64,000 bases of DNA. Source: Alphaproteobacteria bacterium. Its GTDB lineage: Bacteria; Pseudomonadota; Alphaproteobacteria; Geminicoccales; Geminicoccaceae. The notes below the pieces were generated by a model. It was not told where the DNA came from and ran no database searches. It saw nothing but the letters and a program-made list of their open reading frames with translations. The DNA lies in contig JALSGP010000027.1 of the NCBI GenBank assembly GCA_026982705.1, positions 62,001-126,000 of the forward strand, written 5' to 3'. How positions within the stretch are numbered: the first letter of the stretch is position 1; each line of letters starts with the position of its first letter. Positions 13,379 through 17,221 of the stretch are shown here, piece after piece. The position numbers were made by a program, and so were the translations under genes.

Positions 13379-13798
13379 ATGCGGGGACGGCCGGTGGCGG
13401 TGGCGCTGCTGCTGGGCGGATGGCTCGCGGTGGCGCCGGCGGAGGCGGTGGAAGGCGACGCCGATCGCGGGCGGGTGCTGGCCGAGCGCCTGTGTGGGCG
13501 CTGCCATGCCTGGGATCCGGCCGATCCCTACAACAGCATCGGCTCCACGCCCTCCTTCATGTGGATGGCGAAGAAGCTCGATTTCTACGAGGAACGCATC
13601 CTCAGCGTCACCGACCGCCTGCCCCACATCGCCCAGCGCCTCGAGGTCACCGCCGCCGATCTCGAGGACATCGCCGCCTATGTCGCCACCCTGGCGCCAC
13701 GGCCCGCGGCCACCGAGACCGCCGCCGAGGAGGAGGAGGACGAGACCACCCGCGCGCTCCGCCGCTATCTCGAGAAGCTCCGCGGGGGCGGCGGCTGA
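13379..13798 (+). CDS. Small periplasmic c-type cytochrome, monohaem
   Basis: 139-residue exported electron carrier. A signal peptide (VAVALLLGGWLAVAPAEA) is followed by the haem site LCGRCH at about residues 38-43. The C-terminal helix DLEDIAAYVATL matches class I cytochromes. The usual Met-ligand segment (HPPMP-like) before that helix reads RLPHIAQRLEVT here, so the Met is absent; His of PHI or a Met in PSFMWMAKKL are alternative sixth ligands. The acidic tail (EEEEDETT) is notable. GGGGAGGAGAG lies 7 bases before ATG 13379. It is upstream of phaC by 81 bp, with no known functional link. Confidence 0.85.
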   Translation: MRGRPVAVALLLGGWLAVAPAEAVEGDADRGRVLAERLCGRCHAWDPADPYNSIGSTPSFMWMAKKLDFYEERILSVTDRLPHIAQRLEVTAADLEDIAAYVATLAPRPAATETAAEEEEDETTRALRRYLEKLRGGGG

Positions 13799-13879: not shown

Positions 13880-15655
13880 GTGAGCGCGACGGCGACGATC
13901 CCGGCGGAGGAGCTGGCGGCACTGGCGGCGCGGGCCACCCGCCTGCTGGCCCGGACCCGGCACATGCCGCCCGCCGGGGATCCGCTGCGCATCCCCGATC
14001 CCCTCGACATCGCCCGCGTCTTCGCCCTCGCCCATACCGAGCTGCTGCGCCGGCCCGACCGGCTCCTCGCCGTCCAGCGGGCCTGGATCGCCGATCTCGC
14101 GGCGATCCTCGAGACCGTCGCCGCCCGTGCCGCCGGCCGGGCGGCGGCGCCGGTGGCGCTGCCGGATCCCGGCGACCGCCGCTTCCTGGATCCGGCCTGG
14201 GCGGAGGATCCGCGCTTCGACGCCCTGCGCCAGGCCTACGGCGCCACCCTGCGCCGGCTGCGCGAGCTCTACGGCGGCATCCGCGACGCTCTCCCTGTCC
14301 GCGACCGTCGCAAGCTGGACTTCTATCTGCGGCTCCATCTCCACGCCATCGCGCCGGCCAACTTCCCCGCCACCAATCCCCGGGTGCTGCGTCGTGCCGC
14401 CGAGACCGGCGGCCGCTCGCTGCTGCGGGGACTGGTCCACCTGCTGGAGGATCTGGAGCGAGGCCGCGGACGCCTGCGCATCCGCACCACCCGCCCCGAC
14501 GCCTTCCGCCTCGGCGAGAACCTCGCCACCACGCCGGGCCGGGTGGTCTTCCGCAACCGGCTGATGGAGCTGATCCAGTACGCCCCCACGACGGCCGAGG
14601 TGCACCGGCGGCCGCTCCTGATCGTGCCGCCGTGGATCAACAAGTACTACGTCCTCGACCTGCGGCCGCACAACAGTTTCGTGCGCTGGGCGGTGGATCG
14701 CGGGCTCACCGTCTTCCTGATCTCCTGGGCCAATCCCGACGCCTCCTTCCGCGACGTCACCTTCGAGGACTATCTCCGGGAGGGCCCTCTCGCCGCCCTC
14801 GACGCCGTTCGCACCCAGACGGGCGAGGCGGAGAGCCTCGTGCTCGGCTACTGCATCGGTGGCACCCTCACCGCCTGCCTCCTCGCCTGGCTCGCCGCCC
14901 GCGGCGAGCGGCGGGTCCGTGCCGCCACCCTCCTCACGGCGCTGACCGACTTCTCGGAGCCGGGCGATCTCGGCGTGTTCATCGACGAGGACCAGCTCGC
15001 CCGGCTGGAACGCCACATGGCCGACACCGGCTATCTCGATGCCGTCTACATGCAGACGGTATTCGCCCTGCTGAGGGACGTGGACCTGATCTGGAACTTC
15101 GTGATCGAGAACTACCTCATCGGCAACGATCCGCCGGCATTCGACATCCTGTACTGGAACGACGATTCGACCCACATGCCCTTCATGATGCAGAGTTTCT
15201 ATCTGCGCAGATTCTACCTCGAGAACCGTCTCGTCGAACCGGGCGGCCTCGTCCTCCTGGGCGAGTCCCTCGATCTCGGCCGCGTCCGGATCCCCTGCTA
15301 CGTCCTCGCCACCCGGGACGACCACATCGCCCCCTGGCGCGGCGTCTACCGCGGCGCCCGCCGCTTCGGCGGTCCCGTCCGCTTCGTGGTGGGCGAATCC
15401 GGCCACATCGCCGGCGTCGTCAACCCGCCGTCCGCCGGCAAATACGGCTACCGGGTGGGACGGCGGCGTCTCGCCGATCCGGATCGCTATCTGGCCGGTG
15501 CCGTGCACCGTCCCGGCTCCTGGTGGCCGGACTGGTACCGCTGGCTCGCCCGCCATGCCGGACCGCGGGTCCCCGCCCGCGATCCCGACCGGGGACCGCT
15601 GCCCCCGCTGGATCCGGCACCCGGCCGCTACGTGCGGGTGCGGCGGGTGGATTGA
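13880..15655 (+). CDS. phaC: Class I polyhydroxyalkanoate synthase PhaC
   Basis: Polymerises (R)-3-hydroxyacyl-CoA into PHA at the granule surface. 591 residues, normal for class I. An N-terminal helical region precedes the alpha/beta-hydrolase core with IVPPWINKYYVLDL near residue 248. The lipase-like box GYCIGG carries catalytic Cys325; Asp480 (LATRDDHIAPW) and His509 (GESGHIAGVVN) complete the triad. The start is GTG 13880 with GGGAGCGGGAC upstream. No phaR, phaE or phaZ follows; instead a convergent small RNA gene ends 8 bp beyond the stop. The aminotransferase next to it is a frequent alphaproteobacterial neighbour. Confidence 0.95.
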   Translation: MSATATIPAEELAALAARATRLLARTRHMPPAGDPLRIPDPLDIARVFALAHTELLRRPDRLLAVQRAWIADLAAILETVAARAAGRAAAPVALPDPGDRRFLDPAWAEDPRFDALRQAYGATLRRLRELYGGIRDALPVRDRRKLDFYLRLHLHAIAPANFPATNPRVLRRAAETGGRSLLRGLVHLLEDLERGRGRLRIRTTRPDAFRLGENLATTPGRVVFRNRLMELIQYAPTTAEVHRRPLLIVPPWINKYYVLDLRPHNSFVRWAVDRGLTVFLISWANPDASFRDVTFEDYLREGPLAALDAVRTQTGEAESLVLGYCIGGTLTACLLAWLAARGERRVRAATLLTALTDFSEPGDLGVFIDEDQLARLERHMADTGYLDAVYMQTVFALLRDVDLIWNFVIENYLIGNDPPAFDILYWNDDSTHMPFMMQSFYLRRFYLENRLVEPGGLVLLGESLDLGRVRIPCYVLATRDDHIAPWRGVYRGARRFGGPVRFVVGESGHIAGVVNPPSAGKYGYRVGRRRLADPDRYLAGAVHRPGSWWPDWYRWLARHAGPRVPARDPDRGPLPPLDPAPGRYVRVRRVD

Positions 15656-15663
15656 TGGCCGGC

Positions 15664-15690
15664 AAAAAAAGACCGGGTCGCGCGACCCGG
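15664..15690 (-). terminator. Rho-independent terminator of the convergent small RNA
   Basis: An 18-bp perfect palindrome CCGGGTCGCGCGACCCGG (15673-15690) is followed on the minus strand by TC and seven T (15670-15664). On the plus strand the A-run precedes the hairpin, so it works only for leftward transcription and cannot belong to phaC. Confidence 0.85.
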
Positions 15691-15816
15691 CCAAGTGGAT
15701 CAGGGAGGCTGAACGTCTGGGAAGACGAAGCGCGAAGGCTCCATTCCGCAGGCACGCGGCCCGCGCACTCGGCACTGCCGACCGGCCCCCGGTCCCAGAC
15801 CGCCGGGAACCGCGCG
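15664..15816 (-). ncRNA. Probable small RNA gene beside phaC
   Basis: A textbook promoter (15851-15823) and a strong U-tailed terminator (15690-15664) bound a ~153-nt segment on the minus strand with no credible protein. Internal pairing supports a structured RNA: GUCUGGGA (15800-15793) is fully complementary to UCCCAGAC (15722-15715), closing a ~70-nt domain. Between this stem and the terminator is an apparently single-stranded GCCUCCCUGAUCCACUUGG, whose CCUCCCU is complementary to ribosome-binding sites, as in several alphaproteobacterial trans-acting sRNAs. It lacks the SRP RNA loop, tmRNA and RNase P signatures. Families worth testing are suhB/mmgR-like (linked to PHB control in rhizobia) and 6S; neither is established here. 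Confidence 0.7.
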
Positions 15817-15822
15817 GCCCCA

Positions 15823-15851
15823 TAAATACAGGCCTCGATCCGCCGTGCCAA
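15823..15851 (-). promoter_or_regulatory. Sigma70-type promoter of the small RNA
   Basis: TTGGCA (15851-15846), exactly 17 bp, then TATTTA (15828-15823) on the minus strand. It is one of the strongest -35/-10 pairs in the window and points away from the aminotransferase, toward phaC. Confidence 0.75.
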
Positions 15852-15973: not shown

Positions 15974-16002
15974 TTGAAAGCACTTGGAACGGGATGTTAA
16001 GA
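15974..16002 (+). promoter_or_regulatory. Sigma70-type promoter of the aminotransferase gene
   Basis: TTGAAA (15974-15979), 17 bp and TTAAGA (15997-16002) stand 25 bp before ATG 16028. The region is locally AT-rich compared with its surroundings. Confidence 0.65.
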
Positions 16003-16027
16003 TCCCGAGCGATGAGAGCGGACGCCC

Positions 16028-17221
16028 ATGATCGCCCACGCCTCCTTCCTCGACCGCCTCGCCGCCTTCCCCTTCCGGCGCCTCGCCGCCCTCCTGGACG
16101 GCATCGCCCCGCCGGCCGACCTCACGCCCATCGACCTCGCCCTCGGCGAGCCGCGCCATCCGCCGCCGCCGTTGCTGGCCCGGACCGTCGCCGAGCACGC
16201 CCATCTCTGGAATCGCTATCCGCCACCGGCGGGCTCGCCCGACTATCGCCGCGCCTGCGCCGAGTGGCTGGTGCGGCGCTATCGCCTGCCGGCGGACGCG
16301 GTGGATCCGGATCGCCACGTGCTGGCGCTGGCGGGGACCAAGGAGGGGCTGTTCACCGTGGCCGGCCTCGTGGCGCCGGCCCCGGATTCGCCGCGCAGGC
16401 TGGCGCTGATGCCGGATCCGCTCTACGGTGTGTACTACGGTGCCGCGGTGGCCTGGGGGCTCGAACCCCGCCCCCTCGCGGCCACCCGGGAACACGGATT
16501 CCTGCCGGATCTCGATGCCCTCGACGAGGACACCCTGGCCCGCACGGCCATCTTCTACCTCTGTTCTCCCTCCAATCCGCAGGGGGCGGTGGCCGACGCC
16601 GGCTATCTGGCGCGGGCGCTGGAGCTCGCCCGCCGCTTCGACTTCCTGCTGGTGCTGGACGAGTGTTACGCCGAGATCCACGACGGCGTGCCGCCGCCGG
16701 GCGGTCTCGAGGTGGCCTTCGCCCGCTTCGGCGACTTCGCCCACCTGCTGGTGTTCCACTCCCTCTCCAAGCGTTCCAGCGCCCCGGGTCTGCGCGCCGG
16801 CTTCGTCGCCGGCGATCCCGCCCTCGTCGCCCGTTTCCTCCACCTCCGCGCCTACGGGGCGCCGGTGGTGCCGCTGCCGCTGGCGGCGGCGGCGGCGCGG
16901 CTGTGGCGGGACGAGGCGCATGTGGCGGAGAACCGGGCGCGCTATCTGCGCAAGTTCGACCTGGCCGGGGAGATCCTCGCCGGCCGCTACGGCTTCCGGC
17001 GGCCGGCGGGCGGCTTCTTCCTGTGGCTCGAGGTGGACGACGGTGAACGGGCGGCGGTGGAGCTATGGCGAAGGGCGGGCGTGCGCGTTCTCCCCGGAGG
17101 CTATCTGAGCGTCGGGCCGACGGCGGCGGCGCCCGGCCGTCGCTACGTAAGGGTGGCGCTGGTCCACGACGAGGCGACGACCGCCGAGGCGCTCCGCCGT
17201 CTCGTCGCGGTGCTGGGGTGA
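16028..17221 (+). CDS. dapC: Class I/II aminotransferase, probably succinyl-diaminopimelate aminotransferase
   Basis: PLP enzyme, 397 residues. The PLP Lys is in HSLSKRSSAPGLRAGF; LDECYAEI and LCSPSNPQG are the cofactor Asp/Tyr and Asn motifs; the substrate Arg region is near the C-terminal RYVRVALV. The GLFTVAGL and LYGVYYGAAV segments resemble the DapC group that aminates N-succinyl-2-amino-6-ketopimelate in lysine and peptidoglycan synthesis. An aspartate or other amino-acid aminotransferase cannot be excluded. It is transcribed from its own promoter (15974-16002) and followed by ftsK after 65 bp. Confidence 0.8.
   Translation: MIAHASFLDRLAAFPFRRLAALLDGIAPPADLTPIDLALGEPRHPPPPLLARTVAEHAHLWNRYPPPAGSPDYRRACAEWLVRRYRLPADAVDPDRHVLALAGTKEGLFTVAGLVAPAPDSPRRLALMPDPLYGVYYGAAVAWGLEPRPLAATREHGFLPDLDALDEDTLARTAIFYLCSPSNPQGAVADAGYLARALELARRFDFLLVLDECYAEIHDGVPPPGGLEVAFARFGDFAHLLVFHSLSKRSSAPGLRAGFVAGDPALVARFLHLRAYGAPVVPLPLAAAAARLWRDEAHVAENRARYLRKFDLAGEILAGRYGFRRPAGGFFLWLEVDDGERAAVELWRRAGVRVLPGGYLSVGPTAAAPGRRYVRVALVHDEATTAEALRRLVAVLG

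Follow-up and report, generated by a model that had tools for sequence, protein, structure and literature searches.

A small RNA gene on the minus strand of the 64,000-nt stretch of alphaproteobacterial DNA analyzed here (the window, from a genome designated G000) raises the question of what such a gene does just past the PHA synthase gene phaC, and whether its place there says anything about its role. All coordinates are those of the window. The reading we prefer, at a probability of roughly 0.68 and drawn from comparison of sequences, is that the gene encodes a trans-acting sRNA of an alphaproteobacterial family related to SorX and SorY, which appears to be linked to PhaR in its relatives and whose seed would block ribosome-binding sites.

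The sRNA gene and the predicted folds of its RNA

The sequence-only reading had described a TTGGCA-17-TATTTA promoter and a U7-tailed palindromic terminator around some 153 nt, and each of these elements is in place on the minus strand. The -35 hexamer TTGGCA (15846–15851) and the -10 hexamer TATTTA (15823–15828), the latter also placed by the alignment of relatives and the operator scan, are separated by a 17-nt spacer, and promoter hexamers with equal spacing recur among relatives, e.g., TTGGCA-17-TACTTA in locus L137. Transcription would be expected to start near 15816, and with the start placed from the -10 hexamer and the end from the U-run, the predicted sRNA spans 15664–15816 (~153 nt). 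The intrinsic terminator (15664–15692) consists of the hairpin GGCCGGGTCGCGCGACCCGGTC at 15692–15671 and U7 at 15670–15664; in the alignment of relatives, three of its 12 predicted pairs have both sides changed. Shuffles of the window are expected to give 0 matches to the seed-plus-terminator pattern, so the two elements together are more than chance. For an RNA of this composition the fold as a whole is of ordinary stability (z -0.52 against shuffles), and global thermodynamic stability was dropped as evidence for an sRNA because this value is not significant. At the level of sequence, this confirms a compact stand-alone sRNA gene that has a promoter and a terminator of its own and a predicted transcript.

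The 5' hairpin 1 (15783–15812, minus strand) has a 10-bp stem, CGGUUCCCGG(CGGUCUGGGA)CCGGGGGCCG, and its loop displays UCUGGGA. The stem letters vary freely in the window's family, and a counterpart is nevertheless found in relatives: a stem score of at least 5 is reached by 92% of them versus 21% of shuffles, with a mean of 7.3 versus 3.9. The long-range 8-bp complementary pair proposed earlier is present, formed by the loop segment GUCUGGGA (15800–15793) and UCCCAGAC (15722–15715). In the window's family, the hairpin 1 loop UCUGGG is complementary to CCCAGA immediately 5' of the seed, and loop and 3' partner covary among relatives, as in GUCUGGGU/ACCCAGAC, UCCGGGC/GCCCGGA, GCCUGGGA/UCCCAGGC and UCUGGA/UCCAGA, to which UCUGAG/CUCAGA, read from the sequences of L145 and L168, can be added. 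Exchanging loop partners between species lowered complementarity in 298 of 300 trials. The AGAC segment has an alternative partner in a local hairpin, CGUCU-UCCC-AGACG (15714–15727, minus strand), seen directly in the sequence and, in the class-wide form ACGUCU-CCC-AGACGU, by comparison across the class. Forced folding gives -71.4 kcal/mol when the local hairpin and hairpin 1 are both formed and -74.2 kcal/mol for the nested long-range alternative, a difference of 2.8, and the modeled RNA could possibly adopt either two alternative folds or a pseudoknot.

Between the local hairpin and the terminator lies the anti-Shine-Dalgarno seed GCCUCCCUGAUC (15698–15709, minus strand), which is conserved in the aligned relatives and includes the free CCUCCCU stretch (15708–15702) that had been recognized as anti-Shine-Dalgarno in type. 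Within it, CCUCCCUGAU is without variation in 27 aligned sequences of the family. In other alphaproteobacterial families CCUCCCUG occurs in 20 core-located loci and is absent from two of 22, although the cores of those 20 were located by the string CCUCCCUG itself. Comparison thus shows conservation of the promoter, the 5' hairpin, the seed and the terminator, with putative PhaR operators in most of the relatives.

Spread of the family and the place of the gene

The genomes of the window's taxonomic family contain two kinds of RNA resembling RF00519 (suhB/MmgR, alpha-r8). Type 1 carries the alpha-r8 signature GGCGUUUCCUCCCU, as in the copy on contig C18 of G000, and type 2, which includes the window copy, reads CCCAGACGUUYAGCCUCCCUGAUCYACUUGGCCGGG. 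Of the 32 genomes of the family, 25 contain the type 2 core pattern, and its reverse gives 0 matches; the gene had been called an orphan, and it is instead a member of a conserved family, with the conservation and covariation among relatives on which that same reading had staked its proposal. An exact-pattern scan of 289 genomes of the class, in which matches outside the window's family were almost all by chance, had suggested that the core is restricted to one family. That idea was overturned by R1, a covariance model of the type 2 3' core built from family sequences, which detects the core in additional genomes of the family and scores 45–70 bits in many other alphaproteobacterial families, most of those tried giving core matches. 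Outside the window's family the core typically reads ACGUCUCCCAGACGUGAAGCCUCCCUGUU. At locus L143 (G015:C126:58963–59705) three type 2 sRNA genes stand in tandem at a spacing of ~330 nt, and a PhaR-like operator accompanies every one of them.

On the plus strand, phaC (13880–15655) encodes a class I PHA synthase (TIGR01838, 675.7 bits, cut-off 622.65) and converges on the sRNA gene, and a divergent gene (16028–17221) encodes a DapC-like PLP aminotransferase (PF00155; TIGR03538 at 375.8 bits, below the cut-off of 474.6). Upstream of phaC, a small ORF (13380–13798) has a signal-like N-terminus and a cytochrome c-like CGRCHAW heme motif and found no match in Pfam or NCBIfam. A sigma-70-like site with TG before the -10 (TTGAAA-18-TAAGAT, 15974–16003) is possibly the promoter of an aminotransferase-ftsK-lolA run.

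This arrangement invites the explanation that the sRNA acts locally on phaC, through antisense readthrough or convergent interference, or that the phaC 3' UTR sponges the seed. The two genes lie tail to tail, the phaC stop and the sRNA 3' end being 8 nt apart without overlap, and the congener G002 has the identical layout. The U-run works for the sRNA strand only, and since the phaC strand has none, phaC transcripts would run antisense to the sRNA, and could carry its exact complement, unless they stop elsewhere. Against this, locus L003, which is the same record as G002, is the only one among 80 phaC loci with the core downstream, besides the window itself. Pairing between the sRNA and the phaC start is unremarkable. 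A conserved function cannot depend on phaC, because core and seed are kept where there is no phaC nearby, and we regard local action as very improbable.

The sequence-only reading was thus right about the convergent placement just past phaC, and its use of that placement as an argument for a PHA role does not survive the count of one in 80, on which phaC synteny was rejected as functional evidence. A check of synteny shows the sRNA gene beside phaC in G000 and G002 only, and elsewhere in a trxB-lysR/msrP context. In a further congener, G003, the sRNA gene is flanked by the aminotransferase gene and, on its other side, by msrP, which represents an intermediate arrangement. Comparison of gene orders indicates that the adjacency to phaC is recent and confined to two genomes of one genus, and that the ancestral place of the gene is trxB-lysR-[sRNA]-msrP; the relatives' neighbors, named by reading their proteins, are what we take to be a thioredoxin-reductase (trxB)/LysR pair and msrP-parC. 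The phaC neighborhood is thus a poor guide to function. One genus has the sRNA gene beside a PQQ-type beta-propeller gene, a homologue of one of the candidate targets, the type being that identified for homologues.

Relation to SorX and MmgR and the PhaR operator

The covariance-model comparison that had been proposed earlier, an Rfam search of the region, gave no match over threshold to suhB/mmgR, 6S, tRNA, SRP or any other family, and Rfam places the type 2 loci below threshold as well (SorX 27–43, suhB 30–34 and SorY 30–35 bits). For the window RNA the best Rfam E-value is that of SorX (RF02784; 8.1e-5, with 28.8 bits against a threshold of 46.6), distant relatives reach up to 42.6 bits with the same model, and SorY (RF02651) gives 16.2 bits against a gathering score of 111. 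Filing the RNA as SorX was rejected on score. The order of elements in SorX and SorY of Rhodobacter sphaeroides, a hairpin, a CUCCCUG anti-Shine-Dalgarno stretch and then an ACYUGGCCGGG terminator, is nonetheless present in the window RNA; the SorX model aligns over positions 1–73 of 73, with four non-standard positions in the hairpin.

The window RNA differs from SorX in an additional 5' domain of ~75 nt. SorX is cut from the 3' UTR of ompR mRNA, unlike the window gene with its own promoter, and SorY is, like the window sRNA, transcribed from a promoter of its own. The promoter-like site of the window gene and the absence of a co-directional gene immediately upstream argue against RNase E processing from a 3' UTR. 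SorX targets a spermidine-transporter mRNA and SorY the transporter mRNA takP, and the literature examined reports no PhaR operator for SorX.

MmgR is the other obvious candidate. In the sequence-only reading the sRNA was compared with MmgR, and an alternative to our reading is that it is MmgR/alpha-r8 itself, which in Sinorhizobium limits PHB granules through phasins. MmgR limits PHB, and its direct mRNA target is not known in the literature examined. Both RNAs have CCUCCCU, ACUU and the same terminator layout, the RF00519 model gives a sub-threshold match of 30.0 bits (E 3.8e-4), and PhaR (AniA) of Sinorhizobium meliloti binds the mmgR promoter (PMC12542648). However, the match falls short of the gathering cut-off of 41 and is inferior to that of SorX by E-value. 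The single-stranded alpha-r8 10-mer UUUCCUCCCU (PMC12559287) is replaced in the window RNA by CAGCCUCCCU, whereas the paralog on C18 has UUUCCUCCCU and carries GGCGTTTCCTCCCT. Nor does the location agree, as alpha-r8 genes usually have an FGase neighbor and the window RNA is flanked by phaC and the aminotransferase gene.

The C18 copy (G000:C18:4872–4948, L001/L118) has the canonical alpha-r8 core GTTCATGGG..CCGACTTGAGGCGTTTCCTCCCT and scores 32.7 bits with RF00519. A third, weak R1 match (G000:C12:194784–194835) adjoins an FGase (N-formylglutamate amidohydrolase) gene at 193859–194545, so that a weak relative of the window RNA occupies the usual alpha-r8 place. MmgR orthology was rejected on score, 10-mer, location and the presence of this separate alpha-r8 paralog, and we consider identity with MmgR quite unlikely. 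What the window RNA has in common with the alpha-r8 group (MmgR RF00519 and Caulobacter SisA-D) is an anti-Shine-Dalgarno seed followed by a terminator and a probable action in trans; its 5' domain differs, and the same genome has a distinct alpha-r8 copy.

The AbcR1/AbcR2 (alpha-r15) RNAs, which target periplasmic transporter proteins (PMC5461406, PMC8844928), provide a further comparison. Their layout, CUCCCA in a hairpin and then a second anti-Shine-Dalgarno stretch between hairpins, is similar, but the window RNA has UUCCCA in the local hairpin and GCCUCCC as the second motif, reading GCCUCCCUG where AbcR has GUUCCC(CUC). The Rfam scans listed no alpha-r15 family, and the Rfam copy used may not include such a model. 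NfeR1 (alpha-r14), for which anti-Shine-Dalgarno control of solute-binding-protein mRNAs is published, is set apart by its description, since it has three identical anti-Shine-Dalgarno motifs, and it gave no Rfam match in the scan of the window RNA. From the sequences compared, the window sRNA is closest to SorX/SorY and more distantly related to alpha-r8 (MmgR/SisA).

The link to PHA comes from the promoters. The PhaR consensus of Bradyrhizobium diazoefficiens is TGCRNYGCASMA (PMC6201568). Within the window's family this operator is exact in 19 of 37 type 2 upstream regions and has at most one mismatch in 29 of the 37, a set that includes one chance pattern match (L228), versus 0.3% and 6%, respectively, in Markov controls. 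Nearly all of the matches lie at the -10/+1 border, and none of 28 promoters of the type 1, alpha-r8-type paralog has an exact operator. Outside the window's family the operator is exact in five of 20 and within one mismatch in 11 of 20, against 0.3% and 8% in controls. In relatives TATTTAT or TACTTAT is directly followed by the operator TGCRNYGCAGCA, an example from one relative being TTATTGCAGTGCAGCA; in the window copy it is degenerate (GGGGCCGCG), and the scan of type 2 promoters found no operator in the window copy, G002, G003 or G017. Loss of the operator through loss of PhaR was rejected, because 31 of the 32 genomes of the family, G000 among them, have phaR. An exact consensus site, TTGCGACGCACAA, also lies ~115 nt before a petA-like (Rieske protein) gene of G000 (L271, C42:88618–88630).

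Most of the relatives' sRNA genes thus appear to be controlled by PhaR through an operator at the start site, and mmgR is likewise under PhaR control in S. meliloti. Because the relatives carry the operator and the window copy does not, the PHA link is, as far as promoter sequences can tell, well supported for the type 2 family and not for the window copy. The notion of a PHA-related regulator is in this sense borne out by the relatives and does not extend to the window's own promoter. Of the sequence-only interpretation as a whole, the sRNA gene and its anti-Shine-Dalgarno stretch stand, and the orphan status, the argument from phaC adjacency and membership in MmgR do not. The group is best described as a family of SorX-related anti-Shine-Dalgarno sRNAs, most of them with a PhaR-type promoter, and the window sRNA may work like both MmgR and SorX.

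Candidate targets and the proposed role of the sRNA

The sequence TCAGGGAGG at start-codon spacing is matched nine times in the genome of the window; seven of these matches belong to plausible starts, and there complementarity to the sRNA extends over 10–13 contiguous nt. The seven candidate targets, each with the seed match just upstream of the start, are fae (Fae), pqqA (PqqA), a PQQ-catabolism beta-propeller gene (TIGR03866), a cytochrome gene whose best model is related to methanol metabolism (TIGR03874-like, below cut-off), an SsuA-like solute-binding-protein gene, an ArsR-type regulator gene and a secreted-protein gene beside an mtdB-like gene. Three congeners have kept the beta-propeller and solute-binding-protein sites unchanged, with different bases around them. 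Predicted seed-complementary sites in G001 (C398 and C103; L343, L339 and L338) precede methylamine-dehydrogenase large-subunit-like, PQQ sugar-dehydrogenase-like and AroB-like genes. The duplexes with the targets, calculated at -31 to -41 kcal/mol, are stronger than random window segments give on average (-25.5, sd 5.3), though they do not stand out.

Across the window's family there are ~91 plausible start sites with ATCAGGGAGG, and solute-binding proteins make up at least 33 of 83 proteins of the other genomes in Pfam tallies that allow for overlapping models. The seed-breaking control ATCAAGGAGG has 51 matches, with a plausible start in 10 of 30 examined, four of the 10 preceding solute-binding proteins. 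Another control, TACAGGGAGG, has 15 sites, 10 of which precede solute-binding proteins by reading of the proteins; it was rejected as a clean control because the 8-nt seed is still matched and the genes are again mostly solute-binding proteins. Since the control sites are rich in such genes too, their enrichment is only partly seed-specific and, taken by itself, constitutes weak evidence of targeting. Because AGGGAGG makes a good Shine-Dalgarno sequence in its own right, part of the site excess may reflect translation strength.

It is conceivable, then, that the gene is real, that the candidate sites are merely strong Shine-Dalgarno sequences, and that the regulon is a different one, e.g., oxidative stress as for SorX. 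The ancestral neighbors resemble trxB and msrP, genes of thiol and methionine-sulfoxide repair, and SorX and SorY act in singlet-oxygen resistance. A family genome with no strong sRNA match, G024, still has five candidate sites. Against such a regulon, the sites in the window's own genome are coherent for C1/PQQ metabolism, they are kept while their flanks diverge, and the GATC extension is in excess: a complementary G precedes ATC in 47 of 91 sites (p = 1.6e-4), with no enrichment of C on the opposite side of ATC in the 91. We hold this alternative to be doubtful, and the site excess and the C1/PQQ coherence favor true targeting by the sRNA.

The model that follows from the preferred SorX/SorY-related reading is that the single-stranded CCUCCCUGAUC seed would pair, with the assistance of Hfq, on which the sRNA is probably dependent, with GAUCAGGGAGG at ribosome-binding sites, blocking translation and promoting mRNA decay. 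SisA, AbcR and NfeR1 are published examples of anti-Shine-Dalgarno pairing on mRNAs for transporters or metabolic functions. The repressed mRNAs in the window's genome would be those of fae, pqqA, the PQQ-associated beta-propeller, the methanol-type cytochrome c and the solute-binding protein, and in relatives they would include many periplasmic solute-binding proteins. In the ancestral logic PhaR free of PHB would repress the sRNA gene, and PHB granules would titrate PhaR off the DNA and release the sRNA; if the sRNA is induced in this way, stored carbon would throttle substrate uptake and oxidation. In the window's species the operator has been lost, so this control would refer to the ancestral state.

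A wider reading, which we put forward tentatively, would give PhaR, the PHB sensor, an RNA arm in the form of a class-wide sRNA family that Rfam does not delimit as one; stored carbon would act through its single conserved CCUCCCUG seed to repress substrate uptake and PQQ/C1 oxidation, and in the window's lineage the sRNA would have been rewired away from PhaR. The sub-threshold matches to both SorX and MmgR suggest one broader family that the present Rfam models either divide or overlook. Few cases of riboregulation linked to PHB are known, and in the open-access literature we found no PhaR-controlled sRNA besides MmgR. With putative PhaR operators at sRNA promoters across several alphaproteobacterial families, and with fae, pqqA, the PQQ beta-propeller and solute-binding proteins as concrete predicted targets, the link between carbon storage and uptake becomes directly testable.
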